IMG/VR virus record: IMGVR_UViG_3300034378_000102 | Span: 1 to 25,511 of that record | Length of the DNA: 25,511 bases | Source of the DNA: a virus | Strand: one strand, 5' to 3' | Shown here: in pieces, positions 3,733 to 19,428 of the stretch | How positions within the stretch are numbered: the stretch's first letter is position 1 | Layout: every line of letters starts with the position of its first letter | Program-made: the position numbers and the translations under genes | The notes under the pieces: generated by a model | Told to the model about the DNA's origin: nothing | Database searches by the model: none | Seen by the model: only the letters and a program-made list of their open reading frames with translations

Positions 3733-3918
3733 ATGATCCGCATAAACCTTGACGGCGTGTCTTCGAATGCTTTCAGCCGGATAGAAGCCAAGATGATGAT
3801 AGCCGGAAGGCTCGAGTCCCTCGGTTATTTCGATAATCCCTGGCAGATGAACGTGGGAGTGCCGCGCTGCCCCTATGTCCAGAAACAAATCGAGAGGCGA
3901 ATGGGAGGCAAATGCTGA
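3733..3918 (+). CDS. Hypothetical protein, 61 residues
   Basis: A short protein, MIRINLDGVSSNAFSRIEAK at the start and CPYVQKQIERRMGGKC at the end, with a GAGGAGAAGAAAC ribosome site. The sequence looks like an alpha/beta fold with a basic terminal helix. No domain is recognised. Its last seven bases overlap the first possible start of the next gene. It belongs to the run of small genes between the two terminase genes. Confidence 0.5.
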   Translation: MIRINLDGVSSNAFSRIEAKMMIAGRLESLGYFDNPWQMNVGVPRCPYVQKQIERRMGGKC

Positions 3919-4325
3919 TGGCCAGTGACAATCACAAAGAATATAACTGCGGCACGCGCTGCGGACTCTGCTGCATCGTCGTGAGCTCGGTGCGCCTGGC
4001 CAAGTGGGAACACGAGTTGGGCATTTACGATGTCGTCCTCGTGCCTAAATCCAGGACGGGGGACCGGCATAGGGATTGGAGCCGATATGTGCTGCGGCAG
4101 AAAGTGATCGAGCTTCCTCCCCACGGTAAGATCCTCGCTTGCGTGTATTTCGATCCCGAATCAAAAAGCTGTGAGATCTATGAACGGCGACCGGAGGTCT
4201 GCAGAACATTCAACTGCGAGAGGAGTCGGCACTGGCTGAAGATGGAAGAGGAGGAACTCATCAAAAATAAACAGGGCTGGGCCGAAGACCATATGGAGGA
4301 GCTGAGTGGAAGTCCCGCGGTCTGA
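3918..4325 (+). CDS. YkgJ-type cysteine cluster protein
   Basis: A 135-residue protein with two groups of four cysteines: C11, C15, C18 and C19 (CGTRCGLCC), then C75, C85, C95 and C100 (CVYFD... CEIYERRPEVCRTFNC). This layout, including the YERRPxxCRxF signature, matches the YkgJ/UPF0153 zinc- or iron-binding family. Members are widespread in bacteria and occasionally carried by phages; the biochemical role is not established. ATG 3918 overlaps the previous stop (TGATG) and lies nine bases after GGGAGG; ATG 3912 is an alternative two codons upstream. The end overlaps the large terminase start by 20 bases. Confidence 0.8.
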   Translation: MASDNHKEYNCGTRCGLCCIVVSSVRLAKWEHELGIYDVVLVPKSRTGDRHRDWSRYVLRQKVIELPPHGKILACVYFDPESKSCEIYERRPEVCRTFNCERSRHWLKMEEEELIKNKQGWAEDHMEELSGSPAV

Positions 4326-5805
4326 AGTCGAGAGCATCGATCCCACGGGTAAACAGGCCCTGGCGTTCGAAGCCCCTGAGCGCTTTATCCTCTACGGGGG
4401 TGCTATGGGCGGCGGGAAAACAACCTGGCTCTGCGCGTATGCCGTGGATCTCAGCATGCGGTATTCGGATAACATTGGATTTCTCTGCCGGCACGAACTC
4501 CGGAGTTTCCGGCGATCGACGATGCTCACGCTGCAGGAGTGCTTGCCCCTAGAGCTCATCGCTCAGCATCACAAAACGGAAAACTTCATCCGCTTTAAAA
4601 ATGGGTCACTGCTCTTCTACGGCGGCCTGGGTGATGACACGCGGGCTATTGACCGATTGAAGAGCATGGAGCTGGGATGGTTTGGGATCGACCAGGCTGA
4701 AGAGACGAGCGAGAAATTCTTCTTCATGCTGGCATCGAGGCTGCGACACCGGACGGCCAAGGGCCTCCGGTATAAAGGGCTGCTGACGGCAAATCCCGAG
4801 CCCAACTGGATCAAAACGAGGTTCATCGATCAGAAGCTGCCGAATCATACTTTCATTCCGGCGCGTCCATCTGATAACCCCCATCTGCCGGCGGACTACG
4901 AAGAGAATTTAAAGCAAATGAACCTGCCTCCGGAGCTCCTCCGGGCATGGCTCGAGGGGGACTGGAACGCCATCGCCAGCATCAAAAATATCTTTCCCCA
5001 TGAGCAAGTCCTGGATGCCATGAGCCGGACGGTCCACACCAAGGAGAGCGATGAAGAGGAATACGGTGTGGATGTGGCCGAGTACGGGGGAGATGAAACA
5101 ATAATCGCAAAGAAAAAAGGATGGAGCTTCTCCCTCCCAGGGATCTACAGCCATCAGGATCCCATGGAGAGCGTGGGAGACGTCATCCGCATCGTGAATT
5201 ACGATAAAACAAAACCGATCAAGGTAGACGCTATCGGTCCCGGGAACGGCGTTTATTTCAGGCTAAAAGAGCTGGGCTTCAACGCCTACCCCATAAAAGG
5301 CAGCGAGCGGCCGAGCGACGAGTACCTCGAACGCTATAAAAACAAAAAGACAGAGCTCCATTTTCACCTGGCGAAGCTCCTGCCGTATATCGACCTGCCC
5401 GCAGACGACGTCCTGCGGTCACAGATGCAGAGCATCCGCTATCGTACACTGAGTAATGGGATTATAGCCGTGGAGTCGAAAGAGGAGCTGCGACGCCGCG
5501 GCTTACCATCACCCGATCGCATGGAAGCCTGTGTGTATGCCGCAGCTGAGGTCGAAGAGGAGACGGATGGCGAGGTCTACCACACGGGCATAGCGAGAGA
5601 CGAGAAAGAAGCCCAGGAGAAAAAAGAACAGAGGGAGAGAAAGCGGCGACCATATTTATCCGCAGAGCAGGAGGACCGCGTAGAAATCGAAGAGGAGATC
5701 GCGAGGGTGACACGCGGCCAGAAACCCGGGAAGCGTCTGCCGCTGTTCATTGGGGAGAAAGGCGATGAAGAAGACGAAGGTAAAGTCTACTACGGCAACG
5801 AGTAA
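4306..5805 (+). CDS. terL: Terminase large subunit (packaging ATPase and nuclease)
   Basis: The motor that cuts concatemeric phage DNA and drives it through the portal. The N-terminal ATPase shows Walker A at residues 31-39 (GGAMGGGKT) and a Walker B region at 123-133 (LGWFGIDQAEE), in which D129 is followed by Q rather than the usual E. A coupling motif (LLTANPEPNW) follows. The C-terminal RNase H-like nuclease begins at VDVAEYGGDET, continues through VDAIGPGNGV and ends at SPDRMEACVYA. The start is GTG 4306 with GGAGG six bases upstream. The last 57 residues (443-499) are a charged tail beyond the nuclease core; its sequence recurs in the next ORF (see duplication). Length is about normal for the family. 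Confidence 0.95.
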   Translation: MEVPRSEVESIDPTGKQALAFEAPERFILYGGAMGGGKTTWLCAYAVDLSMRYSDNIGFLCRHELRSFRRSTMLTLQECLPLELIAQHHKTENFIRFKNGSLLFYGGLGDDTRAIDRLKSMELGWFGIDQAEETSEKFFFMLASRLRHRTAKGLRYKGLLTANPEPNWIKTRFIDQKLPNHTFIPARPSDNPHLPADYEENLKQMNLPPELLRAWLEGDWNAIASIKNIFPHEQVLDAMSRTVHTKESDEEEYGVDVAEYGGDETIIAKKKGWSFSLPGIYSHQDPMESVGDVIRIVNYDKTKPIKVDAIGPGNGVYFRLKELGFNAYPIKGSERPSDEYLERYKNKKTELHFHLAKLLPYIDLPADDVLRSQMQSIRYRTLSNGIIAVESKEELRRRGLPSPDRMEACVYAAAEVEEETDGEVYHTGIARDEKEAQEKKEQRERKRRPYLSAEQEDRVEIEEEIARVTRGQKPGKRLPLFIGEKGDEEDEGKVYYGNE

Positions 5806-6115
5806 ATCGAGATCTCGTCCCGCAAAGTCAGGGGACGGAGACAGGGGCGAGGTCTTTTTTCTAAGTACGAGCAAAGGGCTATTCCCGGCCACGATCCTGA
5901 AGGCGGCCGAAACCCCCTCGAGAGCGGCTTCGAAGCAGTTGAAGCAGCAAGCCAGATGGCTGTCGGACCAGGGCCTGGTACAGCATCCGTATGACGTGAG
6001 CGGGATGCTCTACCTCATGGACAATTCCAGCTACCTCGATGCGTGTGTCCGGCAGATCGCCCAGGACGTCGTTGGTCAGGGATGGAAGATCAAAGCCAAG
6101 GCGAACGTGGCGAAG
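5632..6115 (+). repeat. Terminase tail/portal head duplication, copy 1
   Basis: Copy 1 covers the code for the terminase C-terminal tail (443-499) and a portal-like N-terminal segment. Copy 2 follows immediately. The best nucleotide match is around 6047-6085 against 6486-6524, offset 439 bases. Boundaries are approximate because they were set from protein alignment by eye. Confidence 0.85.
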
Positions 6116-6283
6116 CCCGAAGAGAAGAAAAAGAAAAGGCCAATGACTCCGGAAGAGGAGGACCGCCGGGAAATAGAGGAAGAGATCGCCAAGATAACCA
6201 GGGAATACCCTGGCCGAAAAAAGAAAAAACAAGAAGACTGGGAGGATGAGGATGAAGGAAAAGTCTTTATCTCAGACGTCTGA
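5765..6283 (+). CDS. Hybrid ORF: portal N-terminal fragment fused to terminase C-terminal tail
   Basis: A 172-residue ORF made of two borrowed parts. Residues 28-115 resemble the N terminus of the downstream portal: GLFP at 38-41, NSSY at 87-90 and DACVRQIAQDVVGQGW at 92-107, the last identical in the portal at 76-91. Residues about 121-172 resemble the terminase tail: EEDRREIEEEIAKITR against QEDRVEIEEEIARVTR, and DEDEGKVF against DEEDEGKVY. This is the product expected at the joint of a tandem duplication spanning the terminase/portal boundary. ATG 5765 has GGGGAG seven bases before it and is preferred over TTG 5750. It lacks the portal core, so it cannot form a portal. It could be a relic, or a small protein that interferes with or assists terminase-portal docking. 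Confidence 0.7.
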   Translation: MKKTKVKSTTATSKSRSRPAKSGDGDRGEVFFLSTSKGLFPATILKAAETPSRAASKQLKQQARWLSDQGLVQHPYDVSGMLYLMDNSSYLDACVRQIAQDVVGQGWKIKAKANVAKPEEKKKKRPMTPEEEDRREIEEEIAKITREYPGRKKKKQEDWEDEDEGKVFISDV

Positions 6284-6551
6284 ACAGGACGAAGGCAAAG
6301 TCTATTTTATAAAAACCGACAAGGGACTCTTTCCCCTCTCGGTTCTGAGGGGTGCCGAGAAGAAACCCAAGACCGAACAGATCAAGCCGAAGAAGTGGTT
6401 GACCGAGCATGGCATGGTCCCCCATCCCTTCAACGTGGATGGGCTTCTGACCTTGGAGGAGAACTCAAGTTATTTCGACGCCTGTGTCCGGCAGATCGCT
6501 CAGGATGTGGTTGGCCAAGGATGGGAGATCAAGGTCAAAGAGGGAGTGAAG
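6122..6551 (+). repeat. Terminase tail/portal head duplication, copy 2
   Basis: Copy 2 encodes the second terminase-like tail (in frame at the end of the hybrid ORF) and the true portal N terminus (residues about 15-100). Both copies keep the same overlapping-gene arrangement, with the portal start nested in the terminase tail in another frame. Boundaries are by eye. Confidence 0.85.
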
Positions 6552-7742
6552 GAACACAAGGAAGAGGATCGCCAAAGGGTCAAGGACTTTCTCCTGGATC
6601 CGAATGAAACGGATGAGGATATAACCGACATCATAAAGAAAGCGATGGTGGACTGGGGATCCGTTGGATGGTGGGGACTGGAGGTAGAACGAGATCCACC
6701 GATCGAGGGCAAAGTCATCGGGCTTTGGCAGATCCCGGCTCACACTCTTTATATCAATGAGGATATGATGCGCTATGCTCAACTCCGGAACGCAAAGAGG
6801 GTCTGGTTCACAAAGTATGGATCCGGACTCCGGATCTCATCGAAGACCGGCAAAGAGGTCAAAGGGAAAAAGAACCTCGCCCATGAATTGATCTACCAGT
6901 TCGAGTATTATCAGAAGTCAGATTACTATGGCCGGCCAAACATCCTGCCGGCTGTGGGCGCTGTGATGGGATTGATCGGTGTCCGGGATTATAACCTGGC
7001 TTTCTTCGACAACTATGGAGTGCCGGCTGCGCTTGTGGTCCTCACCGGTCGATGGTCGGCAGAGGCAGCCAGACAGATAACAAATTTCCTGGACGTGGAG
7101 ATCAAAGGATCCTCCAATGCTCACAAGACCCTGGTCCTAAAACCGCCGGCCAACGGAAAGGTCGAATGGAAGCCCTTGAACGTGAAGACAGAAGAGGCCG
7201 GGTTTAAACTGTATCTGAAGATCCTCCGGGATGAGGTTCTCTCCGCTTATAAGATGCCTCCCTACCGGATCGGGATCGCAGAGACTGGATCTCTAGGTGG
7301 ATCCATCGCCGGGGAGTCAACGAAGATCTACGCTCAGTCAATCATCCAACCGCTCAAGATGCTGACTGGCCGGATCATAACAAACAAGGTCGTCCGGGAT
7401 GGGTTAGACATCAAGGACTTTTATTTTGAATGGAACAAGCTCGACACCAGGGATCACGATGCCCTGGTCAAGCGTCTCCAGATCCTGTTTATGATGGGCG
7501 CTGTGACTCCGAATCAGATCCGGAAAGAGATGGGATGGGAACCCCGGAAGGATCCGGAGGGGAATCAATACTACATAGCAGCCAACTTCCTGCCGGCTGG
7601 AGAGGAGTCAGTCGAGAAGAGGGAGGCCATAATGATGGCAGCCCTGGAGGAGCTTGGAGGGAAGATCCAGACTTTTATAGATTCCGATCAGGAAGGGAAA
7701 GAAAGGTTCAATCAAATAATAAACGAAGGCAAGGAGGACTAA
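6252..7742 (+). CDS. Portal protein (Phage_portal family, PBSX/HK97-like)
   Basis: Forms the dodecameric ring at one capsid vertex through which DNA enters and leaves. The protein has 496 residues, a normal length. Supporting features are the N-terminal NSSYFDAC...GQGW block, the clip/stem part with YYGRPNILPAVGAVMGLI and DNYGVPAALVVLTG, and the YKMPPYRIGIAE...SIAGESTKIYAQSIIQPL block typical of Phage_portal proteins. Next come FYFEWNKLDTRDHD and GAVTPNQIRKEMGWEP, a very common portal C-terminal signature. ATG 6252 is preferred over ATG 6246 because GGAGG (6241-6245) is six bases upstream. From here on the DNA is richer in GATC and GGATCC than the terminase gene. Confidence 0.93.
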   Translation: MKEKSLSQTSEQDEGKVYFIKTDKGLFPLSVLRGAEKKPKTEQIKPKKWLTEHGMVPHPFNVDGLLTLEENSSYFDACVRQIAQDVVGQGWEIKVKEGVKEHKEEDRQRVKDFLLDPNETDEDITDIIKKAMVDWGSVGWWGLEVERDPPIEGKVIGLWQIPAHTLYINEDMMRYAQLRNAKRVWFTKYGSGLRISSKTGKEVKGKKNLAHELIYQFEYYQKSDYYGRPNILPAVGAVMGLIGVRDYNLAFFDNYGVPAALVVLTGRWSAEAARQITNFLDVEIKGSSNAHKTLVLKPPANGKVEWKPLNVKTEEAGFKLYLKILRDEVLSAYKMPPYRIGIAETGSLGGSIAGESTKIYAQSIIQPLKMLTGRIITNKVVRDGLDIKDFYFEWNKLDTRDHDALVKRLQILFMMGAVTPNQIRKEMGWEPRKDPEGNQYYIAANFLPAGEESVEKREAIMMAALEELGGKIQTFIDSDQEGKERFNQIINEGKED

Positions 7743-8057
7743 ATGCCAATCATCGTCGTCTTAAAAAACCCACCTATCACCCTGGCTGTGAAAGGAAAAA
7801 TCGACCAAGCGTATCTTCAGAAATGCCGAGTGTTCGACGCAGTAGTCGAAGAGGCTATTGATGGGATGCCTATGATTATCCCGATCAAGCTCGACTCTAA
7901 CATCGCCTACATCAAAGAGATCTCCGAGGAAGAGTATAAGGAACTCGAGGCTGAAAAGGAAAAGAGAAAGACTCAGCAGGGAGGCCAGATTGTCCGGCCA
8001 GATGTTACGATGGGACCGCCAGGGAGAGGATTCAGGAGGCAGAGAGGACAGCATTGA
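7743..8057 (+). CDS. Hypothetical protein between portal and minor head protein
   Basis: A 104-residue protein that starts immediately after the portal stop, with AAGGAGG upstream. The N-terminal 60 residues alternate hydrophobic strands (PIIVVLKNPPITLAV, MPMIIPIKL). Then comes a highly charged helix (EEEYKELEAEKEKRK) and a basic Gly/Arg tail (GPPGRGFRRQRGQ). The family is not recognised. Small genes at this position often encode head accessory proteins. The stop overlaps the next start (TTGA). Confidence 0.6.
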   Translation: MPIIVVLKNPPITLAVKGKIDQAYLQKCRVFDAVVEEAIDGMPMIIPIKLDSNIAYIKEISEEEYKELEAEKEKRKTQQGGQIVRPDVTMGPPGRGFRRQRGQH

Positions 8058-8902
8058 ATGAGATCCTAGTCGATATCCACAAGTCAATCTACGTTGCGCT
8101 GGAGAAGCTCAACTACCGGCAACGAAGGCGCCGGCAGTTTCTACTCAATCAAAGGAAATACGAGCGAGCCTTGCGGAGCGCAGCCAATGAGTTCTTCGCC
8201 TTCCTAACAAAAGAGGTCCGGAAGGGACTTGGCCGGGCGAGAGGAAAGACTCCTTCCGCAATCGTTGAGAGCATGGCCAACTGGGGATACATCAAGGGAG
8301 AGGGACGGAAGATCTTTAACGGTCCCCTGTCCAGAATTGCAGCCTCCGGATCCGATGCTGTGGGGAGGTTTGAAAAGCAGGAAAGGACCGATCCGATCGG
8401 ACAGGCTTCTACATCCTGGGCGAACTCCCATGCCGGAAGCCTAGTGGCCGGCCTGACCAATGAGACCATGCAAGCTCTAAGGACTGTGGTCCGGACCGGG
8501 ATCGACCAAGGAAAGTCAATCCCTGAGATTGCCAGGGAACTCCGGCCAATCATCGGACTCAACAATCAACAGGCCGGCGCTGTGGGGAGCCTGGCCACGA
8601 AGCTCGAGGAGGAGGGATTGGCTCAAGCGGATATCGACAAGGCGCTTGACCGCTACATGAATAAAGCGCACCTGTCCAGGGCTTTGACCATAGCCAGGAC
8701 AGAGACTGCGAGCGCTCTCAATGAGGGCGCTATTATTGGATACAAGGATGCTGGTATAAAGAGGCTCATGAGAGTAGAGGATCCTGATTGCTGTGAGCGT
8801 TTCTGCCAGGATCATCAAGGACAAATCTATACAATCGGCGAGGCATCCGGGGTCCTTCCGGCTCATCCAAACTGTGAGGGGACCTGGGTGTCTGCTGAAT
8901 GA
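8054..8902 (+). CDS. Minor head protein (SPP1 gp7 / Mu gpF-like head morphogenesis)
   Basis: A 282-residue protein with a C-terminal Phage_Mu_F domain. ARTETASALNEG begins near residue 214, followed by YKDAGIKRLMRVEDPDCCERFC (243-251) and a closing LPAHPNCEGTW (HPNC at 271-274). These are the usual R-T-E-x-x-x-x-N-x-G, aspartate/cysteine and HPxC elements. Family members bind the portal and are injected or retained inside the head. The N terminus is basic and helical. The start appears to be TTG 8054, overlapping the previous stop, with a GAGAGGA site; no in-frame ATG is nearby. Gene order after the portal fits exactly. Confidence 0.88.
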   Translation: MNEILVDIHKSIYVALEKLNYRQRRRRQFLLNQRKYERALRSAANEFFAFLTKEVRKGLGRARGKTPSAIVESMANWGYIKGEGRKIFNGPLSRIAASGSDAVGRFEKQERTDPIGQASTSWANSHAGSLVAGLTNETMQALRTVVRTGIDQGKSIPEIARELRPIIGLNNQQAGAVGSLATKLEEEGLAQADIDKALDRYMNKAHLSRALTIARTETASALNEGAIIGYKDAGIKRLMRVEDPDCCERFCQDHQGQIYTIGEASGVLPAHPNCEGTWVSAE

Positions 8903-8913
8903 GGAGGTGAAAC

Positions 8914-9642
8914 ATGGCTTGGAAATTTAACCCTTTCACCGGGCAACTCGATTACTATGAATCCGGAGAGGTCGTGGTCACTCCGGAGTCCATCCAGTTC
9001 CGGGATGACTTCGATGACGCATCTGTTTACTGGGCTTGGAGACAAAATCCTGGATCCGCCGGGACAATCACCGAGGCTGGAGATGTTTTGACTCTAAGCA
9101 TAACTAGCGCCCTTGGGAGAGACTGGAGACAGAGTGAGTGGGACGAGTCACCACGAATCTTCGTGGGTCTTTGTGGATACCCTGCGATTGTCGAAACCAA
9201 GATCAATTCCTTTACAGTAAACGATGGAATCAGCGCTTACATCTTTGCCTCGTATAATCCGGGATACGACTATAAAGACGGAACCTGGATCCTGGCCAGG
9301 GAAAGATCTAGCGTCGGGGGATGGAACGGACTGGCTGCATGGGCAAACAATGTCTATGAGGCAACCAACGCTGTGACCACTATGCCGATCTGGTTGAGAT
9401 TGAAAATCGGAAGCTCCTCCACTTATTACAGCGACAGAGTTATCATGGAATATAGCACAGACGGAGAAACCTGGGTCAATCTGGCAACGGTGGAATCAAA
9501 CCTTGCTGGAGCTGCCGGCATTGATCTCCATGTGGGTTTAGGTTTGTGCAACAAGGTCCAGTTGGAGGGAGGCGCTGCCGGAGACGCTCCATTTGAATAT
9601 TTCCGGATGTATCGGGACTTCGGTCCATACTATTCACCGTAA
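8914..9642 (+). CDS. Concanavalin A-like (jelly-roll) domain protein, probable virion decoration protein
   Basis: A 242-residue protein with a very strong ribosome site (AGGAGGTGAAAC before ATG 8914), suggesting high expression. It begins MAWKFNPFTGQLDYYE, a start often seen on phage structural proteins. It continues as a beta-rich domain with the DDFDD..YW...GTITEAGDVLTLSI pattern and LRLKIGSS...YSTDGETWVNL, typical of LamG/DUF1349-like carbohydrate-binding folds. No transmembrane segment is seen. It could decorate the head and bind surface glycans. The fold assignment is from pattern only, and the glycan-binding role is inferred. Confidence 0.65.
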   Translation: MAWKFNPFTGQLDYYESGEVVVTPESIQFRDDFDDASVYWAWRQNPGSAGTITEAGDVLTLSITSALGRDWRQSEWDESPRIFVGLCGYPAIVETKINSFTVNDGISAYIFASYNPGYDYKDGTWILARERSSVGGWNGLAAWANNVYEATNAVTTMPIWLRLKIGSSSTYYSDRVIMEYSTDGETWVNLATVESNLAGAAGIDLHVGLGLCNKVQLEGGAAGDAPFEYFRMYRDFGPYYSP

Positions 9643-10106: not shown

Positions 10107-13100
10107 ATGAAGATAGAAGACATGAATCCTGAGAGCTTAGGGAAGGCTCCGGATAAAGAGCTTTATAGTCTGCGCCTTCGATTTGTCCAGTTGTTTAACA
10201 AGTTCTTCTTTGGGAATAACAGGGAGAAAGCCAACAGCCTGGAGAGGAAAGACATGCTCTCCAAGTATAGGATCCTGATAAAAGAGATGAATACCAGGGA
10301 CCTCCGGACCATGAAGGAGACGAACATCGACCGGGCTGTGTTCAAAAATGCGATGCTCGGAGTGGATGTCCCAAGCATGGGCGAGTTTGTGGTCGTAGAA
10401 AATTACATCTCCATCGGAGGATCCTTTGTCAAAGATCCAAAGGGAGCCGAAGATGTCGATGTCATAATCAGGGATCAATCAGCAAGTCGAGATGAAGGAC
10501 TCGAGCTAAAGATTGGCCGGACCATCAGGACCAAGACCAAAAAGGATCCACATTTTGTCTATTCCCCGAAGGGTCCACATAGCTCTTACATTCCGCTTTT
10601 TGATCTAGTTCTAAGGAACCGCTCGGAGACAAAAAAGGTGGAGGTCAAAGAGGCTCTGGCCAAGATTGAAAAACAAAGTCAGGAGTATTTCGCTCAGTTG
10701 GATAACTGGGATGAGATCCTGCTCAGGGATAACTATGAAGTGATTAAAGCCCTGGATCAAGGATCCGTTCTGGATCTAGGCTGTGGGACCGGAAGGCTCC
10801 TCAAACTCCTGGAGCAAAGCGGAAGGCAAGTCGAAGGAGTGGACAAGAATGATATCGCCCTGGGCTTCTGCAAGAAGAAAGGGCTAACCGTTCACAAGTT
10901 AGATCTGGAGGATGGGACTCTTCCTTTTGAGGATGCTTCTTTCGATAATGTGATCTCAGTTCATGCCCTGGAACACCTCACAAACATCGAGCCGATGGTC
11001 AAAGAAGCCAAGCGAGTGGGAAGGAAGAAAGTCATCCTCTTGATTCCGCTCGGCCAAAGATGGGATAAGACCCACAAGCAGAAGTTCGACACGATCGACG
11101 ATCTGGAGAAAACTCTGGGATCCGGTTGGAAAATGAAGGAAATCAAGGACACCGATTCTGCATTGGCCTCCTGCCGGGTCCTGGAGAAAAAGACACTCAA
11201 GCCCCTCCAGAGATTCGTTCCCTTAAAGATGGGCAGAGGCTATGCGATGGGAGAGCAATTCGATATCGAGGAGATGTGGGACAAGTGGGCGAAAGCCTAT
11301 GTGGATCGGGGGATCCCATTGGCAGTTCAGAAAAAGTTCTCCGGATGGAGGGTTGTCCTGCAGCTTGGAGGCGAGGATAAGACCCTGATCTATTTTGAGG
11401 ACTCAAAAAAAGATCGATCCAAACAGTTCCCGGATCTGACTGCGGAACTCAAGACGATAAAAAAGCCGGTGATCCTGGATGCAGAACTCGAGGCTCTAAC
11501 TCCTGGAGGGGATCCGATCCCTCGGAAGGATCTAGCATACTGGGGAGACAACCCGACTGTGCCAAGAGAATTTGAGACTCCCGGCGGAGTTAAAGGCCGG
11601 TATATCTGCAACGTCTTTGACATCCTCTACTGTGAGGGCGAGGATCTCCATGATCGGGAATACAGGGACAGGAGAGAACAGTTGAAAAAGCTGTTCGGAG
11701 CCTTTGATTTCAAGCTCCTGAAAATGGTCCCGGAGATCGTGGTCAAATCAAAGGATGAGTTTGTCAAGGCGATAAAGAAAGTTTCAGATCTTCCAGGATC
11801 CGAAGGAGCGGTTGTTAAAACTGTGACCGGGAACTATCCTCTCACCGGCCAGTCTCCCACATGGGCGAAGATCAAAACCATAGTGGAGTTTAAAGTCCAG
11901 GTCCTTGAACAGATCCCGGTGAAAGATAAAGACACCTATGTTTACCGGATCGGATATCTAAGCGATGGCGAGATCAAGGAGATGGGAAAGACCTATAACA
12001 CGAAGATGAAGGCATCGAAGGGAGACATCCTCACGATCTCGGCGCAGGAAATTATCCCGAAGGTGGGCAAGGATGGAAAGCTGGAGATCTCTGCCATAGC
12101 TCCAGGAGTCCGGGATAAGGATATCTCCAGGAAGAAACCGGAGACTGCCAAGGAGATCGCAAGCCGGGCAAATAGAGCCGGGATCCTCCAGGTTACTCCC
12201 GACCAGGAAAAGGATCTCCGCTCTCAAGGATTGATAAAACAGGATGAGGGAGTTGGAGGAGAGTTCGGAAACATAGATTTCACCGAAGGGATGAAAGGAA
12301 CCGGAGTCCTCCAGGCTCATATCATGGGAATAGAAGAGGAGAATATCGAGCGATTGAGACAAGGATGGGATCGGATCAAAGTCGCTAGAGGAGATCCTCG
12401 AAAACTCGGATCCGTTCTAAAGAGCATCCTGGGAGAGCAGGGCGTTCATCTCGATATAAGGCTCCGGCCTTCCGGTAAGGACTACTGGGAGGGCGGAGAG
12501 TTCATGGTCGGAAACATCTCCGGCCTTCCTAAAATGGCAGAGGCAAAGACCGGTCGGAAGTTGCGCTTTGCTTGGAAACAGAGCCGGGTTGGAGAGAAGA
12601 AAACAAAGATCGTCAGAGGACCCCTGAGTTGGATGGATGTCGGATGGAACAAGATCGAGATCATGGCACCCGGAGAGGTGGGAGCGACAGCCAATCTCCA
12701 TGCAGCGATAGTGACTTTGGATAAGTTCAAGTGGGAGATCTATCAGGCCGATGAACATGCAAAGAAGTTTCGCTTCTCAGACCGGATCATTGATGGGAAT
12801 TGGCTCTTTGCTTTCGTCCCGGTGGGTGAAGGAAAGAGAGTCTGGATGGCCTCGCTCCTGGATCCGGATGACCACACAAAACCCAAGCCGGTGGAGAAGC
12901 TGAGTCCTGCTCAAAGGAAAGAGTGTGATGCGGAGACAGAGAAGATCCGGGAGAGCGCAAAGACCGCAGTCTTTCCTCACAAATTCAAGCCGGCGAAATA
13001 CACCCACAAGAATGGTCATCCTCGATGCCTGATCTGTGGAGATGAGGAGAGGATAGGTGGGATCTGTCGGAAAGGAGCCTTCTTCAAATTCCTAAAGGTG

Positions 13101-13442
13101 GACAAGAAGCAACAGATAGTCGGAGGGATTGTCTATGCTCCAGGAGAGGAGGATTCCCAGGGAGACTACACAGATAAAAAAGAGATTGAAAAAGCGATGT
13201 ATCGGTTCATGGAGAAATACTCGAAGGACTCCAAGCGGATCAAGGTCATGCACAAGGGAGAGACTAAACACTTCCCGATCCTGGAGTGCTTCCAACCGGA
13301 CGCAGACATCAAAAAGGGAGGCCAGGAGATCAAGGCTGGATCCTGGTGGTTGATGATAAAGGTCCCGGATAAAGAGATCTGGAAACTTGTTGAGAATGGA
13401 TCCCTGACCGGATTTTCGATGGGGGGGCAAGCCTGGGCGTGA
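10107..13442 (+). CDS. Five-domain fusion: nucleotidyltransferase, methyltransferase, ATP-dependent ligase, LigD-PE-like, XkdF prohead protease
   Basis: An 1111-residue protein with AGGAGG upstream. (1) Residues 80-190: polymerase-beta-type nucleotidyltransferase, with GGS at 104-106, D116/D118 and third acid D166 (FDLVL). (2) 192-360: SAM methyltransferase, motif I VLDLGCGTG at 221-229, D246, then LPFEDASFDNVISVHALEHL. (3) 380-670: ATP-dependent DNA ligase; motif I KFSGWR at 410-415 (Lys410 nucleophile, Ser instead of Asp), LDAE 457-460, FDILY 504-508, EGAVVK 566-571, TWAKIK 585-590, then an OB fold. (4) 720-920: resembles the LigD 3'-phosphoesterase, with VLQAH (H738) and HLDIRLR (781-787). 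(5) C974, C977, C987: possible zinc site. (6) 997-1111: XkdF/Peptidase_S78_2 protease, with VMHKG (H1049) and GFSMGG (S1104). The protease should mature the procapsid. The other domains suggest DNA end repair. Domains 3 and 6 are firm, 1 and 2 good, 4 tentative. Confidence 0.9.
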   Translation: MKIEDMNPESLGKAPDKELYSLRLRFVQLFNKFFFGNNREKANSLERKDMLSKYRILIKEMNTRDLRTMKETNIDRAVFKNAMLGVDVPSMGEFVVVENYISIGGSFVKDPKGAEDVDVIIRDQSASRDEGLELKIGRTIRTKTKKDPHFVYSPKGPHSSYIPLFDLVLRNRSETKKVEVKEALAKIEKQSQEYFAQLDNWDEILLRDNYEVIKALDQGSVLDLGCGTGRLLKLLEQSGRQVEGVDKNDIALGFCKKKGLTVHKLDLEDGTLPFEDASFDNVISVHALEHLTNIEPMVKEAKRVGRKKVILLIPLGQRWDKTHKQKFDTIDDLEKTLGSGWKMKEIKDTDSALASCRVLEKKTLKPLQRFVPLKMGRGYAMGEQFDIEEMWDKWAKAYVDRGIPLAVQKKFSGWRVVLQLGGEDKTLIYFEDSKKDRSKQFPDLTAELKTIKKPVILDAELEALTPGGDPIPRKDLAYWGDNPTVPREFETPGGVKGRYICNVFDILYCEGEDLHDREYRDRREQLKKLFGAFDFKLLKMVPEIVVKSKDEFVKAIKKVSDLPGSEGAVVKTVTGNYPLTGQSPTWAKIKTIVEFKVQVLEQIPVKDKDTYVYRIGYLSDGEIKEMGKTYNTKMKASKGDILTISAQEIIPKVGKDGKLEISAIAPGVRDKDISRKKPETAKEIASRANRAGILQVTPDQEKDLRSQGLIKQDEGVGGEFGNIDFTEGMKGTGVLQAHIMGIEEENIERLRQGWDRIKVARGDPRKLGSVLKSILGEQGVHLDIRLRPSGKDYWEGGEFMVGNISGLPKMAEAKTGRKLRFAWKQSRVGEKKTKIVRGPLSWMDVGWNKIEIMAPGEVGATANLHAAIVTLDKFKWEIYQADEHAKKFRFSDRIIDGNWLFAFVPVGEGKRVWMASLLDPDDHTKPKPVEKLSPAQRKECDAETEKIRESAKTAVFPHKFKPAKYTHKNGHPRCLICGDEERIGGICRKGAFFKFLKVDKKQQIVGGIVYAPGEEDSQGDYTDKKEIEKAMYRFMEKYSKDSKRIKVMHKGETKHFPILECFQPDADIKKGGQEIKAGSWWLMIKVPDKEIWKLVENGSLTGFSMGGQAWA

Positions 13443-13671
13443 TTATCCTTTAAAACCCTTTAAATAAGGGGCAAATAAGGCGATTTAAAGGCCATATACC
13501 GCACTTTAGCCCAGGGCGCATATATCCCTATTAAAAAAGGGGGAGACAACCAAATAGGGCTTTAAATCTACCTCCCCAGAAAAACAAAGCTCTGAGAGCC
13601 TCGTAGAGCGAAGAACTCAAACTACCTAATGATATTATATGGCAGATTTACAGGGGAGAGAAAAAAAGTTC
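13443..13671. other. Non-coding gap, first part: TTTAAA repeats and folded RNA candidate
   Basis: Gene-free DNA between the protease and the promoter. It holds CCTTTAAA twice (13447-13454, 13457-13464), AAATAAGG twice (13462-13469, 13473-13480, 11-base period) and the pairing elements at 13457-13577. From 13578 to 13671 only weak small repeats are seen (GCTCT/AGAGC near 13590). No GATC occurs from 13443 to 13850, unlike the flanking genes. Confidence 0.7.
13457..13577 (+). ncRNA. Possible pseudoknotted structured RNA
   Basis: GATTTAAAG (13482-13490) pairs with CTTTAAATC (13560-13568). CCCTATT (13526-13532) pairs with AATAGGG (13553-13559), so the two helices abut without a gap. ATATA (13494-13498) pairs with TATAT (13521-13525). 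The loop GGGGAG (13540-13545) can pair with CTCCCC (13572-13577), which would make a pseudoknot. In competition, CCTTTAAAT (13457-13465) pairs perfectly with ATTTAAAGG (13483-13491). All pairings are read from the sequence; whether an RNA is made and folds this way is unknown. Confidence 0.4.
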
Positions 13672-13699
13672 TTGACAAACTACTTTCAATGTTTATAGT
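13672..13699 (+). promoter_or_regulatory. Sigma-70-type promoter for scaffold and capsid genes
   Basis: TTGACA (13672-13677) is a perfect -35 box. After 16 bases, TATAGT (13694-13699) is a near-consensus -10 box. Transcription would start near 13706, leaving a leader of about 145 bases before the scaffold ATG at 13851. It is the only near-consensus promoter I found in the window. It fits the need for strong capsid protein expression. Confidence 0.65.
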
Positions 13700-13708
13700 T
13701 TATTAACG

Positions 13709-13799
13709 AACTTCGGATATGAAGTTTGAAGGCGAAGGTAGATGCTTCGCCATGCTACGCTCTCGGCGTTCAAGACTTCATAATGCCTGATAGGTCTTG
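13709..13799 (+). promoter_or_regulatory. Structured 5' leader with three-way junction and competing hairpins
   Basis: A 13-bp helix forms between 13718-13730 and 13769-13782, with one bulged G at 13774. It encloses a 7-bp hairpin (GGCGAAG 13731-13737 / CTTCGCC 13745-13751) and a small CGC/GCG hairpin (13758-13768). Competing pairings are AACTTC (13709-13714) with GAAGTT (13721-13726), and CAAGAC (13771-13776) with GTCTTG (13794-13799). These would break the main helix from either side, which is the layout of a switching leader RNA. It could instead be a free-standing small RNA. Confidence 0.55.
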
Positions 13800-13850
13800 G
13801 ATGCCTCATCAAAAGGGGATTCAAGAAATCTAAAGTCTAGGAGTTTGTGG

Positions 13851-14585
13851 ATGGCTCGCAAACTAAAAGACATCGACGTGGCAGAGATCTCATTAGTGGA
13901 TGCTGCTGCCAATCGAGAAAAATTCTTTATCGTTAAAAGGAGACAAGCTATGGAATTTTTTGAACTTCTGAAGAAATTCCTGGGCGACGAAGACGTCTCT
14001 GATGAGGACATTGCAAAAGCCAAAGAGTTGTCAGAGAAAGCTATCAAGGCGATTCAGGGGGCTTTGAATATCCTCACTAAATACAAGGAAGACATGCCTT
14101 CAGATGTCCTCAATGCCATCAAGACCCTGACCAAATATGCCAGTTATGGCTATCCGGCAAAGAAAGCTGAATTGACACAGGAAGAGTTTATCGAAGAGAT
14201 CTTGCAGAAAGCCGGCGCTCGTTTGAGCAAGGCGACCGTCGAGCAGTTGAAAAAGATCCAGTCCATCGTTGAGGGTTTGATCGGAGAGAAAGAGAAAACC
14301 CGGAAAGACAAGTTCGGTGACGTCTCTGATGAAGTCAGAGAGCGTCTGGAGAAGCTCGAGAAGCTAGAGAAAGAGGAAGCCGATCGGAAGAAGAAAGAGA
14401 AAGAAAAAGCTGACGCCGACAAGCAGAAAGAGATCGACGATCTCAAGAAGCGCCTGGAGAAATTAGAGAAGAAGAAACCGGTCCGGAAGAGTGTCAAGGG
14501 TCAAGAAGGGGACGACGATGAGGATGATGATACGGTCAAATGGCCTTCACTTTTACCCAAAGATGAAGAGGGAGGAAAAGAATGA
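13851..14585 (+). CDS. Scaffold protein, detached continuation of the XkdF protease
   Basis: A 244-residue protein. Residues 5-30 (LKDIDVAEISLVDAAANREK and following) match the segment that normally follows the XkdF protease domain within one polypeptide (EVSLVDxPANxxKF pattern). Residues about 150-225 are a very charged coiled coil (EKLEKLEKEEADRKKKEK and on), as in scaffold proteins that fill the procapsid before DNA packaging. The acidic tail GQEGDDDEDDDTVKWPS ends the protein. ATG 13851 with AGGAG seven bases upstream is preferred; the frame is open back to 13794 but has no better start. The stop overlaps the capsid gene (ATGA). It is probably a substrate of the protease domain encoded upstream. 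Confidence 0.8.
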   Translation: MARKLKDIDVAEISLVDAAANREKFFIVKRRQAMEFFELLKKFLGDEDVSDEDIAKAKELSEKAIKAIQGALNILTKYKEDMPSDVLNAIKTLTKYASYGYPAKKAELTQEEFIEEILQKAGARLSKATVEQLKKIQSIVEGLIGEKEKTRKDKFGDVSDEVRERLEKLEKLEKEEADRKKKEKEKADADKQKEIDDLKKRLEKLEKKKPVRKSVKGQEGDDDEDDDTVKWPSLLPKDEEGGKE

Positions 14586-15721
14586 AATCGACAAAAGACC
14601 TGCTCTCTAAATTCAAGCTGGACAAATCCTACAATCTGATCTCCATGCCGACCATTGCCCTGACCGCAGAGGAGGCCGACAGGTTCATCGACTACATCGT
14701 AGATGAGAGCGTGATGAAAAATTATGCTCGAATCGAGAAGATGTCTAGGCCACAAAAGAACATCCGAGCCATCGGGTTCGGAGATGCCAATTTCCTCTAT
14801 CCTGCTGATGAGTTCAATGAGTCCAAGTATAAAAAACAATGGACTCACAACAAGATCCAGTTGAACACCAAAAAGGTGAGGGGAGCTATTGCTGTATTCG
14901 ATGATGATCTGGAGGATATCCGGCACATCGAATCGCAAGATGCTTTCATGGATCAACTGATGAGGATCGTTTCCCGGAAGATAGCCAATGAGCTAGAGGA
15001 AGCCTATTACATGGGTGACACTCATGGTCTCAATGGCTTTGCGGTGGATAACATCAACGTCCTTTGGGACGGTTGGCGTTATATCATCAATCATAGTGGT
15101 GCAGGACAGCTATACTTAAACAATGTTACAGGCAGCGCCCATCTCAAAGAAGCCTGTCTTTGTGAGAGTGGAGCTTCCTGCCCAAGCGGTCAATCAGATC
15201 CCGACGCTCATTTTCAGTTCCCTGGAATGATCGCCGAGCAAGATCCTAACCCTCCATACAACTGGGAGTTCAAATACCACCAGATGCTCAAGAACATGCC
15301 CTCGAAGTATAAAGCGAACAACGGCCTGGCAAACATGGTCTTCCTGAACTCAGATCTCGTCTCTCAGGACTATATCGAAGCCTTGAGTCAGAGGGGAACC
15401 GCCCTTGGTGATGCGATCTTCACCGGAAAGGCGCCAATGGCCTACGGTAAGGTCCCCATCATTGACGTTCCTCTTATGCCAACGAATCTTGGCCAAGATA
15501 CGGACGGAACCTATGGTCTCATAGGCGGAGGGGAATATACCGACGTCTTACTCACACCAAAGAACAACCTGGTTATCGGAATCCAAAGAGAGATCAAAAT
15601 CGAAAGCCAAAGAGTCCCTGCCGATGAAGCGACTTATGTCTTTTACAGCATGAGATCCGATGTCTCCATCGAGAACGTGGATGCTATCGTCTTTCTGAGA
15701 TGCCTTGAGCATCGTTGCTAA
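14582..15721 (+). CDS. Major capsid protein (HK97 fold)
   Basis: A 379-residue protein that forms the icosahedral shell. The N-terminal segment (DESVMKNYARIEKMSRPQKN), the KVRGAIAVFDDDLED strand-turn and the long helix DAFMDQLMRIVSRKIANELE followed by YYMGD are typical of HK97-fold capsid proteins in this type of gene block. PSKYKANNGLANMVFLNSD and PIIDVPLMP belong to the A-domain. An unusual insertion at about 165-235 carries C192, C194 and C200, and two further Cys are near the C terminus (C374, C379). These might bind metal or form disulfides. It is translationally coupled to the scaffold gene and lies downstream of the strong promoter. There is no separate N-terminal delta domain; the scaffold is encoded separately. 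Confidence 0.92.
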   Translation: MKSTKDLLSKFKLDKSYNLISMPTIALTAEEADRFIDYIVDESVMKNYARIEKMSRPQKNIRAIGFGDANFLYPADEFNESKYKKQWTHNKIQLNTKKVRGAIAVFDDDLEDIRHIESQDAFMDQLMRIVSRKIANELEEAYYMGDTHGLNGFAVDNINVLWDGWRYIINHSGAGQLYLNNVTGSAHLKEACLCESGASCPSGQSDPDAHFQFPGMIAEQDPNPPYNWEFKYHQMLKNMPSKYKANNGLANMVFLNSDLVSQDYIEALSQRGTALGDAIFTGKAPMAYGKVPIIDVPLMPTNLGQDTDGTYGLIGGGEYTDVLLTPKNNLVIGIQREIKIESQRVPADEATYVFYSMRSDVSIENVDAIVFLRCLEHRC

Positions 15722-16878: not shown

Positions 16879-17508
16879 ATGGGCAATTATATTGACCCTT
16901 CGGATATAGATAATTGGCCTTCTGGTTGTGACCTGGCTTGCCAGGAAGCCCTCATCGCCAAATACGAGTTGATGCTCGAGGAACTAACCGGCACACATTT
17001 TTACGCAAAGAACTTTGACGTTGAAATAAATGGGAACGGAAAGAACAGGATCTTTCTTGGCCTAGCAGCCGACATCATTTCTATCACCGCAGTCTATATC
17101 TGTCTGCTTGAACTTCCGACTTCTTGGTATGGCTTTGACGCCGATTCTGTCTATTTGGATCTATGCACATCGGGAGCTACGACCGGGGTCGCTTGGGGGG
17201 AGTTATTTTATAGGCTAGGCGAAGCCGAAGAGAAAGGACTTTTCCCAAGAGGATATAATAACTGTCGATTCGTCGGAACCTACGGACAGCCCTATCTTTT
17301 GCCCTTGGCAAAACAGGCTGTCACCATGTTAGTTGAATCCCACAATGATGGATCCATCTATCCCAAGCTGATGATATCCGAGAAGATCGGAGATTACAGC
17401 TATAAGTTCGGAGGGACAGTCTATGGGAACATCTACACAGGGATCCGGGAAGTCGATGAGGTTATTGATATCCTGGCCAGAAAAAAACCGGTGATCCTAA
17501 CTCCATGA
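16879..17508 (+). CDS. Head-tail connector (adaptor) protein
   Basis: A 209-residue protein with the usual features of connector proteins that sit under the portal. It has an N-terminal helical segment (CQEALIAKYELMLEELTGTHF), then NRIFLGLAADIISITAV and a Y-strand region. Then come LFPRGYNNCRFVGTYGQP and LAKQAVTMLVE, comparable to the FPxGxxNVxVxGTYG and terminal helix seen in HK97 gp6/SPP1 gp15-like adaptors. The last block (KIGDYSYKFGG) is the common G-D-Y-S-Y signature. It starts after the hairpin at 16815-16874. Its stop overlaps the first gene of the glycan cassette (ATGA). Confidence 0.82.
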   Translation: MGNYIDPSDIDNWPSGCDLACQEALIAKYELMLEELTGTHFYAKNFDVEINGNGKNRIFLGLAADIISITAVYICLLELPTSWYGFDADSVYLDLCTSGATTGVAWGELFYRLGEAEEKGLFPRGYNNCRFVGTYGQPYLLPLAKQAVTMLVESHNDGSIYPKLMISEKIGDYSYKFGGTVYGNIYTGIREVDEVIDILARKKPVILTP

Positions 17509-18212
17509 GAAGAAGGATCCTAAATATGCCGATGTTATATAGATCCAAAGAGTATGGCAATCCATTCATTATGGAGGTCCTTCCTGACAACTCCTGGAAG
17601 GACAAGCCTTGTTTCATAATAGGCGGAGGTCCCAGTTTAAAGGATTTTGACTGGACCAAGTTAAAAGGCAAAAGGACGATCGGGATCAATCTGGCTTATT
17701 TGAAGCATGATCCCACAATTATTTTTTCGATGGATACACGATTTTTAAACTGGCTTGAACAAAAATACTATGGTCCGGAAGCCCTGGATCTATTCTGGAG
17801 ATCTCCGGCATATAGGGTCTGGCTTGCCACTTATGTCATCTCCCTTCCTGGAGATATCCATCTTGTCAAAGTTTATAAAAATTATAACGCCGGCCTTCGG
17901 GGTTTTACTTGGTCAATGAAGGATGGGATCGGTCATGGCAATAACTCCGGATATGCTGCACTCAACCTGGCTGTCTGCCTGGGCGCAAACCCGATCTATC
18001 TTTTAGGATTTGATTGCTCGCATGAGAACGGAAAGAGTCATTGGCATAAAGGCCATCCTGTTAAACAGTCCGAGGTGACTGTCCAGAAGTTCATCTTCTA
18101 CTTTGAAAAAGCATCCCAGTTATTAAAAAGCAAAGGGATAAGAGTCATAAATTTAAACCCGGAATCCGGGCTTAACTGTTTCCCTAAAATGGATCCAGGA
18201 GAGATTTTATGA
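17505..18212 (+). CDS. DUF115/MptE-like Rossmann protein (putative glycosyl or nonulosonate transfer)
   Basis: A 235-residue protein. CFIIGGGPSLKDF (36-48), GIN (60-62) and FSMDTRF (74-80) form the nucleotide-binding start. GNNSGYAALNLAVCLG (145-160) and IYLLGFDCS (164-172) match the GxNSGxxAxNLA...IYLLGFD signature of the DUF115 / MptE-like group, related to flagellin-glycosylating Maf proteins. HWHKGHP (179-185) may contribute to an active site. Such proteins occur in phage glycan loci. The first possible start is ATG 17505 overlapping the previous stop; AAGGA fits ATG 17526 too. The reaction is not established for phage members. Confidence 0.7.
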   Translation: MRRRILNMPMLYRSKEYGNPFIMEVLPDNSWKDKPCFIIGGGPSLKDFDWTKLKGKRTIGINLAYLKHDPTIIFSMDTRFLNWLEQKYYGPEALDLFWRSPAYRVWLATYVISLPGDIHLVKVYKNYNAGLRGFTWSMKDGIGHGNNSGYAALNLAVCLGANPIYLLGFDCSHENGKSHWHKGHPVKQSEVTVQKFIFYFEKASQLLKSKGIRVINLNPESGLNCFPKMDPGEIL

Positions 18213-18553
18213 GTATGCAAGGAAAGGTCTGGGGAGAGACGACTCAGTTTTTTCAAACTGATACTGTGGAAGCTCACTTTCTCAAAATTAAAAAGGGAGG
18301 CTTCTGCTCGGAACACAAACATGACCACAAGTCGAATCTATTTTTTGTGATATCGGGAAAGCTGATGATAACTATCTGGAGGGATGGATCCGAGGATCTC
18401 ACCGTTCTTGGACCTGGCCAGGCTTCGGCTGTTGCCCCTGGATTCTATCATAAGTTTGAAGCCCTGGAGGACTGCAAGTGCATTGAGATTTATAGAGTTT
18501 TCCTCCAGCCTCCAGACATAGATCGCCGGACAGTCGGAGGGATGAAAAAATGA
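18209..18553 (+). CDS. Cupin-domain protein
   Basis: A 114-residue single cupin. Motif 1 is GGFCSEHKHDHKSNLFFVISG (spanning residues 30-50, with H36, H38 and H40 as candidate metal ligands). Motif 2 is PGQASAVAPGFYHKFEA (69-85, with H81). Cupins in sugar loci are often isomerases or sensors of activated sugars; here the substrate cannot be told. It shares 4-base overlaps (ATGA) with both neighbours, so it is made in step with the transferases. Confidence 0.8.
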   Translation: MSMQGKVWGETTQFFQTDTVEAHFLKIKKGGFCSEHKHDHKSNLFFVISGKLMITIWRDGSEDLTVLGPGQASAVAPGFYHKFEALEDCKCIEIYRVFLQPPDIDRRTVGGMKK

Positions 18554-19428
18554 AGGTTGCGATCTACTCCAGGACACCGCTTGCTGCTGCACCCTGGGAG
18601 ATCTATAAAGCCCTCAAAAAATACACCTCTATCAATGTGGCTCTGATAAATGAGAACCGGCGATATCCGGATGGCCGGTCCTTTCCCTGTCATCTTTTAA
18701 TCAGATCTAATGATGGGACCGCTAGAGCCTGGCTAGATCAGAGCGATGTCTGGCATGTTCATAACTACTGGACGAGAACCCTCCAGGATATCAGACACGA
18801 TCAAAGGATCCTGGCTCAATTTCATTCGGTCCCGAAGATGGGGAACTGGAAGGAATTGATGAGCGTTGCCGATGAAAGCTATACGATCCAACAGCCCCTC
18901 CAGATGAAGGAATACAATCTCTCAACCCTTCCTAATATCATAGATCCGGATGAGTATCGACCGATTAAAAGGGAGAAGAAAATCAAGATCGCTTTCGCTC
19001 CTACCACAAGGCTCCGCTATGGCCATGTGGCGAGCAAGGCATACTATGAGGTCCGGACGATCTTACAGGATATCGCCCTGAAGAAAGGTGTTGATATTAT
19101 CTGGATCGAGGGGAAGCCATACAAGGAAAATCTCAGGATGAAAAGCGAGGCTCATATCCTGATTGATGACGTGGCTACCGGGAACTGGCATAGAACCTCA
19201 TTGGAAGGTGGATGCTTTGGCTGCGCTGTGATCAACAAGGTAAAGAAACATCCCTTTGTCTATGCCGGAATCAAAGATCTAAAAGAAAAGCTGATCTGGC
19301 TGATAGATAATCCAGGGACTTTGAGAGATATCCAGCATTGGACTAGACTTTGGGTCCTCCAGGATTGGCATGCGATAGACAGGATCCAGGAATACGCCAA
19401 GGCTTATGAGGGACTCTATGCACGTTGA
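18550..19428 (+). CDS. Glycosyltransferase, GT-B fold (GT4-like)
   Basis: A 292-residue protein with two Rossmann-like halves. The N-terminal half is short (MKVAIYSRTPLAAAPWEIYK, DVWHVHNYW). The linker LPNIIDPDEYRPI (127-139) and the C-terminal IAFAPTTR (147-154) are characteristic of GT4-type enzymes. HILIDDVATG (202-211) and SLEGGCFGCAVIN (217-229) lie where the donor-binding E-x7-E/glycine-rich loop is normally found. It should transfer a sugar from a nucleotide donor to an acceptor that cannot be inferred. It is coupled to its neighbours by overlap at both ends. Confidence 0.78.
   Translation: MKVAIYSRTPLAAAPWEIYKALKKYTSINVALINENRRYPDGRSFPCHLLIRSNDGTARAWLDQSDVWHVHNYWTRTLQDIRHDQRILAQFHSVPKMGNWKELMSVADESYTIQQPLQMKEYNLSTLPNIIDPDEYRPIKREKKIKIAFAPTTRLRYGHVASKAYYEVRTILQDIALKKGVDIIWIEGKPYKENLRMKSEAHILIDDVATGNWHRTSLEGGCFGCAVINKVKKHPFVYAGIKDLKEKLIWLIDNPGTLRDIQHWTRLWVLQDWHAIDRIQEYAKAYEGLYAR

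Follow-up and report, generated by a model that had tools for sequence, protein, structure and literature searches.

Why should the head maturation protease of a phage be made as the last part of a protein that also carries a DNA ligase? This question is raised by a gene on a virus contig, the IMG/VR virus record IMGVR_UViG_3300034378_000102, whose 25,511 bases were analyzed as a whole and are called the window in the following. Positions 10107–13442 of its plus strand form an open frame of 1,111 amino acids (aa) with zero internal stops, and the strand opposite is interrupted by stops. In this frame an earlier note had read a nucleotidyltransferase (NTase), a methyltransferase, a ligase, a 3′-phosphoesterase (PE), a Cys motif and an XkdF protease, and had proposed a LigD-like toolkit for the repair or circularization of genome ends. 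We agree with this list of domains. As to the purpose, we consider it somewhat better than an even chance that the gene encodes a modular head protein of a tailed phage, a virion-loaded "polyvalent" protein which delivers a strand-break and base-excision repair set together with the genome.

The frame is also intact on a second contig. L001 (IMGVR_UViG_3300035158_000066; L-numbers are labels given here to contigs carrying relatives) encodes the same protein (over about 10 kb the two contigs differ at 11 nucleotides), and the same domain order recurs in relatives from many other contigs. Therefore an assembly artefact or chimera, a risk which the earlier note had raised, could be excluded.

Domains of the fusion protein

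The C-terminal domain matches the XkdF head maturation proteases (Peptidase_S78_2, PF14550) with 92.7 bits against a cut-off of 24 (2e-26). It has the active-site histidine H1049 and serine S1104, the latter within the motif GFSMGG, and the gene lies in the head gene cluster. In the middle of the protein Pfam recognizes the core of an ATP-dependent DNA ligase (DNA_ligase_A_M, aa 404–590, 3e-17, well above the cut-off), and among the ligase models of NCBIfam the window ligase scores best with DNA ligase D (TIGR02776, 1e-15, which is below the curated cut-off). According to the motif table Lys410, Glu460, Glu566 and Lys588/590 are kept, and the motif I lysine, the motif IV glutamate and the motif V lysine are preserved across all compared ligases. 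The OB fold (oligonucleotide/oligosaccharide-binding fold) that had been assigned together with the ligase would lie in aa 591–700, as judged from the alignment.

The domain behind the ligase had been likened to the 3′-phosphoesterase of LigD. Its AlphaFold model, built from an alignment of 19 relatives, has a pLDDT (predicted local distance difference test) of 92, and the top six PDB matches all belong to the LigD 3′-PE family (probability 0.99–1.00, as compared to 0.12 for the seventh). The matches include 3n9b (1.5e-4), 3p43, 3p4h and 5dmp and span Pseudomonas aeruginosa LigD, archaeal PEs and Methanocella. A Pfam scan of the window protein gave no match to LigD_N (PF13298) in the PE region, and a profile search of PDB sequences with this domain returned noise only. 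When segments of divergent relatives were used, seven of ten matched LigD_N or nothing better, the best with 5.9e-5 over positions 6–105 of 107 and all below the curated cut-off; TIGR02777 (LigD_PE_dom) also matches weakly in divergent relatives. Thus, of the two domains for which the earlier note had demanded profile support, the ligase is found by Pfam, whereas the PE is missed by Pfam in the window protein and is recovered by fold and through its relatives. The residues Q736, H738, H781, D783 and R785 are invariant in 19 of 19 PE sequences and, by alignment and fold, appear to correspond to Gln40, His42, His48, Asp50 and Arg52 of P. aeruginosa LigD, among which His42, His48 and Asp50 form the metal triad. 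LigD PE sequences were also sought among plasmids for a residue-level alignment and no match was obtained, so that this assignment is a reading of the alignment.

The N-terminal domain is the conserved chassis domain of the family. Its AlphaFold model (aa 1–188) has a pLDDT of 80, and the best PDB matches are to the minimal nucleotidyltransferase MNT with a probability of 0.91 but E-values of 0.07–0.15; a profile search of PDB sequences with the domain gave zero matches. Homologues of the domain show weak matches to DUF6932, Polbeta and NTP_transf_2. Because these matches and the GGS…DxD…D pattern (with D116, D118 and D166) agree with the MNT fold, aa 1–188 are taken as a polymerase-beta-type NTase, by which a polymerizing activity is not implied. 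Structure prediction with fold search, which the earlier note had recommended and which was run for the PE and the NTase, agrees with both of its assignments. A match to the LigD polymerase was not found with Pfam or NCBIfam, and the protein as a whole lacks the primase-type polymerase of LigD. Hence the notion of a LigD-like toolkit holds for the ligase and the PE and fails for the polymerase.

Between the NTase and the ligase the protein has an S-adenosylmethionine (SAM)-dependent methyltransferase (Methyltransf_11, 3e-17, likewise well above the cut-off), which among NCBIfam models is closest to the MetW/UbiE type. In L009, L054 and L147 this slot is occupied by a metallo-beta-lactamase (MBL) fold, and in some relatives it is empty. 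The short Cys/His motif NGHPRCLICG recurs across the family at varying positions. Two relatives are broken in this part of the gene. The MBL-bearing member in L026 is split into two frames (5977–6681 and 6645–9503, plus strand) by a frame change within the MBL domain, owing to decay or an assembly error. In L030 an HNH-like frame (7169–7768, plus strand) interrupts the gene between methyltransferase and ligase; a group I intron was sought there and Rfam gave no match.

Exchange of cargo in the protein family

The architecture search in viral metagenomes that had been suggested yielded many relatives with the same chassis. Searches of virus contigs and GTDB contigs gave 167 frames, of which 106 remained after dropping those with identical C-terminal 150 aa. 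The family thus comprises about 106 unique proteins, mostly from metagenomic virus contigs, of 344 aa to 2,177 aa, which start with the NTase-like domain, end with the XkdF domain and vary in between. This central part is where domains are exchanged, which turns the picture from a single odd fusion into a chassis for cargo. The GTDB matches come from metagenome-assembled genomes (MAGs) of unrelated groups (Aminicenantes, Desulfobacterales, Pacearchaeota, Omnitrophota and Thermoplasmatota); probably these are phage contigs binned with the MAGs, so they give no safe host.

Of 54 non-redundant members that are complete at both ends, 27 combine a ligase with a PE, two have a ligase without a detected PE, three a PE only and 22 neither. 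One profile iteration recovers the PE in both exceptions (L140 and L146) and in the archaeal virus ANMV-1. Therefore every ligase has its PE, in 29 of 29 ligase-bearing representatives. Other cargo includes a uracil-DNA glycosylase (UDG) domain in L143, L145 and L147 (1.6e-20 in the last), D12-class (Dam-like) adenine methyltransferases (three in L078 and one or more in L146) and an ADP-ribosyltransferase in L112. In L142 the chassis is split within one operon: one gene encodes NTase, Acb1, methyltransferase and zeta toxin, and another the ligase, PE and protease, the latter directly preceding scaffold and capsid-like genes.

The NTase is linked to the repair domains. Both aspartates of the DxD motif (scored as intact when the first and third acids are both Asp) are present in all 30 scorable proteins that have ligase or PE, as compared to one of 22 that have neither; two proteins with ligase or PE lack the segment and could not be scored. 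Fisher's test gives 1e-11 with these two counted as negative, a figure that is inflated by related sequences. On the best tree built from the protease domain the repair domains are gained or lost six times, at least three times on supported branches, and in three of three supported pairs the DxD motif changes together with them. The evidence that the NTase acts together with ligase and PE is good, but falls short of proof.

Several family members deserve mention on their own. The 2,177-aa member (L078, 943–7473, plus strand) has three tandem D12-class methyltransferases preceding methyltransferase, ligase, PE and protease. The NTase gene of L142 (5959–8985, plus strand; the same as the minus strand of L158) combines the NTase with Acb1 (directed against CBASS, the cyclic oligonucleotide-based antiphage signaling system; Pfam 2.8e-25), the methyltransferase and a zeta-toxin-like kinase; the ligase–PE–protease gene lies about 7 kb further on. 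In L034 (5995–7251 and 7209–8609, plus strand) an insert that looks like an ADP-ribosyltransferase, though with no Pfam match, replaces the ligase core, while the OB and PE parts remain; this virus has a separate 296-aa ligase elsewhere.

Proposed role and points against it

Head proteases enter the procapsid. From this known role we infer that the XkdF domain brings the whole protein into the procapsid, where the cargo may be cleaved from the protease. The fused enzymes would remain in the head after maturation and would enter the host alongside the DNA. The LigD-type ligase would seal strand breaks in the phage genome, the LigD-type PE would clean 3′ ends and the polymerase-beta-type NTase could add or fill in nucleotides, so that nicks and damaged 3′ ends would be mended during packaging or on entry. 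We read this as base-excision and single-strand-break repair because a ligase, 3′-end cleaning, an NTase and, in relatives, a UDG are combined. Delivery into the capsid or anchoring at the capsid, as put forward in the earlier note, would fit both the fusion to a protease and the gene's position between MuF and scaffold and capsid genes. Enzymes that are injected as head proteins are established in the case of T4 Alt and have been proposed for MuF and polyvalent proteins (PMC5512222). The protein has the marks of the latter, as it is a multi-domain enzyme with exchangeable domains encoded among the head genes of a phage with portal and terminase.

Several observations speak against a repair function. 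In the window the motif I of the ligase reads K-F-S-G-W-R, as the earlier note had also seen; the motif I aspartate is replaced by serine. In most methyltransferase-bearing relatives the aspartate is an asparagine (KxNG) and the motif III glutamate is gone as well, and the canonical KxDG is found in members with the MBL or without an extra domain (L009, L027, L054, L080 and ANMV-1). The motif I aspartate and the acids of motifs III and IV hold the catalytic metal through water (PMC6698739). The residue roles of the LigD PE are known for P. aeruginosa, where mutants of the phosphate-binding His84 and Tyr88 are inactive (PMC8656161), and the PE described here lacks both partners, the positions being Gly or Pro and Trp; the invariant H884 elsewhere in the domain might replace one of them. 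In addition, a test with independent pairs for the linkage of DxD motif and repair domains gives a p of 0.25, three pairs being too few for significance. The ligase is nevertheless under purifying selection: across six close relatives the ratio of nonsynonymous to synonymous substitution rates (dN/dS) was 0.042 (ligase), 0.043 (PE), 0.056 (NTase), 0.068 (methyltransferase) and 0.046 (protease). The ligase need not, however, be able to seal nicks.

If the reading as a repair set is true, it has a simple meaning for the phage. Once packaged, phage DNA stays naked and without repair until the first minutes of infection, and a head-borne repair set would be an answer to nicks, blocked ends and uracil at a time when neither host nor phage genes can act yet. 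The family also shows that a head maturation protease can be a general chassis for exchangeable enzymes. Whatever lies between an N-terminal NTase and XkdF offers a simple search handle for new injected effectors, including those against host defence, and the arrangement is possibly a natural design for loading enzymes into capsids. We go one step further only tentatively, with chances that we put a little below even: across a broad range of uncultured phages, XkdF-type proteases may be the means by which exchangeable enzymes are loaded, and here the load would be a self-contained DNA-repair set (LigD-type ligase and PE, polymerase-beta-type NTase, sometimes UDG) that repairs the phage genome in the capsid or at entry. 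It would then be the first case of a DNA-repair system carried in the virion of tailed phages.

Alternative explanations

The set could also serve to join ends, with the LigD-type ligase closing the injected linear genome after trimming and filling. Ligase and PE are indeed both of the LigD type, and the genome of mycobacteriophage Corndog is recircularized by non-homologous end joining (NHEJ) with a phage Ku (PMC4351075). However, Ku (PF02735) was not found in 24 related virus records, many of which may be incomplete, the polymerase is not of the LigD type, and nothing in ANMV-1 or the relatives of the window protein points to genome ends as the substrate. The UDG cargo of relatives suits damage repair better. 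We regard end joining as unlikely and depart here from the earlier note, which had favored the repair or circularization of genome ends. The UDG, being specific for DNA, also argues against an RNA-repair set, in which ligase, PE, NTase and a Hen1-like methyltransferase would restore host tRNAs that anti-phage nucleases have cleaved once the enzymes are injected. What recalls RNA repair is the KxNG motif I of many relatives, which is unlike the usual KxDG of DNA ligases, and the methyltransferase beside the ligase, an arrangement reminiscent of Hen1-Pnkp. In addition L142 matches one phrog annotated as RNA ligase and one annotated as polynucleotide kinase. But the former match covers the Acb1 domain, a 2H phosphoesterase, the methyltransferase resembles MetW/UbiE-type models, and the matches of the ligase in Pfam and NCBIfam are to DNA-ligase and LigD models, with none to a family of RNA ligases. 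We therefore consider RNA repair quite improbable.

A role in anti-defence or host takeover, with ligase and NTase transferring nucleotides to protein or nucleotide signals and not to DNA ends, would explain other parts of the family: the Acb1 and zeta-toxin-like domains in the same operon of relatives, the three Dam-like methyltransferases and the ADP-ribosyltransferase domains. The nearest fold of the NTase is MNT, which AMPylates a toxin, and the changed active site of the ligase could signal a new substrate. Yet in 29 representatives the ligase never occurs without the PE, an enzyme of DNA ends, and the UDG occurs together with both, which makes such a role improbable for this cargo. Finally, the long protein may not be cargo, but may act late in infection within the cytoplasm, for instance by sealing nicks prior to packaging, or may be a structural filler with decaying activities. 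In most of these contigs no ATP-dependent ligase other than the fused one was found, some motifs of the ligase are degenerate and the cargo is absent in 22 of 54 members. Against this stand the fusion with a head protease, the strong purifying selection on all domains including the ligase (dN/dS 0.04–0.07) and the retention of the lysine, the glutamate (motif IV) and the lysine (motif V) of the ligase throughout, and we give this explanation very little credit.

Relation to known systems

The virion-loaded repair protein that we prefer resembles the polyvalent proteins described from phages and conjugative elements (Iyer et al. 2017, PMC5512222), which likewise have many enzyme domains per chain and are encoded among head genes. 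They are thought to be packaged and injected, polymerase-beta NTases, ADP-ribosyltransferases and DNA methylases are typical of them, and an assemblin-like peptidase, where present, is C-terminal (PMC5512222). In contrast, the peptidase described here is XkdF and always last, and the N-terminal NTase is fixed. The text of PMC5512222 does not mention "DNA ligase", "end joining" or "glycosylase". A literature search, with most subscription journals outside its scope, found no earlier account of a head protease fused to ligase and PE, in line with the earlier note, which knew of no described system with this exact set. Thus the polyvalent concept with its NTases, methylases, ADP-ribosyltransferases and C-terminal peptidases is already known, and the fusion of ligase and PE to a head protease appears to be the new part.

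In common with LigD and the stand-alone archaeal 3′-phosphoesterases, the ligase core is nearest to LigD models and the PE keeps its fold and the Q-x-H … H-x-D-x-R residues. It differs from bacterial and archaeal LigD in that a polymerase-beta-type NTase replaces the primase-type polymerase, Ku was not found, His84 and Tyr88 are gone, and a methyltransferase and a head protease are added. Another likeness is the "ATP-dependent DNA ligase" AJP62006 of ANMV-1, a virus of an uncultured archaeon. This protein has NTase, ligase and PE in one chain, collinear with and homologous to the window protein, but lacks methyltransferase and protease. Its gene is in the head gene region, between the portal gene and a long, Cys-rich gene whose end is MuF-like. 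Therefore the repair set is encoded among the head genes of dissimilar viruses, whether it is joined to the protease or not. The ANMV-1 gene annotated as a MutT-like phage hydrolase (L013, KP703175.1, 1913–3193) is the portal protein (Phage_portal_3, 3e-22).

The XkdF proteases of ordinary tailed phages belong to the same family and occupy the same place before scaffold and major capsid protein, but there N-terminal motif, protease and scaffold are in one chain, whereas here the protease forms the end of the cargo protein and the scaffold gene has retained the motif. The repair set of African swine fever virus (ASFV), with Pol X, DNA ligase and AP endonuclease, also has a very small polymerase-beta-family enzyme alongside a viral ligase. 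ASFV Pol X has 174 aa, fills gaps and works with the viral ligase in base-excision repair (PMC5330486). The ASFV enzymes are separate proteins of a eukaryotic virus, and homology is not claimed.

Gene neighborhood and other features of the window

The coordinates of the domains and of the neighboring head genes are given in Table 1. The order of the genes is terminase, portal, MuF-like protein, two small frames, the fusion gene, scaffold-like protein, capsid protein and head–tail adaptor. XkdF itself is split in the window, as positions 3–36 of phrog_3017 start the next gene and the protease part (positions 44–152) ends the fusion protein. Of the 54 representatives, 45 have a scaffold homologue immediately behind the gene and at least 36 a MuF homologue ahead of it, as counted manually; contig ends account for part of the remainder.

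Table 1. Features of the fusion gene and of the surrounding head gene cluster (window positions)
Feature	Position	Strand	Basis
Whole gene: NTase, methyltransferase, ligase/OB, LigD-type PE, Cys motif, XkdF protease	10107..13442	+	1,111 aa frame, Pfam, L001
Polymerase-beta-type NTase domain, aa 1–188 (GGS 104–106, D116, D118, D166)	10107..10670	+	alignment, AlphaFold model, homologues
SAM-dependent methyltransferase (Methyltransf_11/MetW-like, VLDLGCGTG), aa 222–312	10770..11042	+	Pfam 3e-17
ATP-dependent DNA ligase nucleotidyltransferase domain, aa 404–590 (K410, E460, E566, K571, K588, K590; S412 at the motif I Asp)	11316..11876	+	Pfam, NCBIfam, motif table
Region after the ligase core, aa 591–700, aligned with the OB-fold part of ligases	11877..12206	+	collinear with ANMV-1 to aa 644
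LigD-type 3′-phosphoesterase, aa 718–923 (Q736, H738, H781, D783, R785)	12258..12875	+	AlphaFold model, PDB fold matches, relatives, conservation
Short Cys/His motif (NGHPRCLICG)	12996..13082	+	sequence reading
XkdF head maturation protease domain, aa 993–1109 (H1049, S1104 in GFSMGG)	13083..13433	+	Pfam 2e-26; phrog_3017 1e-26
Terminase large subunit	4306..5805	+	phrog_2 2.7e-31
Portal protein	6246..7742	+	phrog_12 9e-47
MuF-like head morphogenesis protein	8054..8902	+	phrog_3517 8e-19
Scaffold-like protein starting with the XkdF N-terminal motif (RKLKDIDVAEISLVDAAANREKFF)	13851..14585	+	phrog_3017 positions 3–36; motif in relatives
Major capsid protein (virion structural protein)	14582..15721	+	phrog_1623 6e-48

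About 400 bases between the protease gene and the scaffold-like gene (13443–13850) are without a clear gene and without an Rfam match. In two relatives metabolic-looking genes are found at this place, a radical-SAM-like gene in L002 (9721–10554) and dehydrogenase-like and thiamine-enzyme-like genes in L004 (2795–5842, plus strand), and the spot looks as if it takes up cargo genes. A search of the window for RNA families, tRNAs and tandem repeats found none. Upstream of the terminase a small Cys-rich protein (3912–4325; CGTRCGLCC…) is encoded that weakly matches a PHROG without an assigned function. Between the head–tail adaptor and the neck genes (17505–23900) the window has frames which, by sequence reading, resemble glycosyltransferases, sulfotransferases and methyltransferases.

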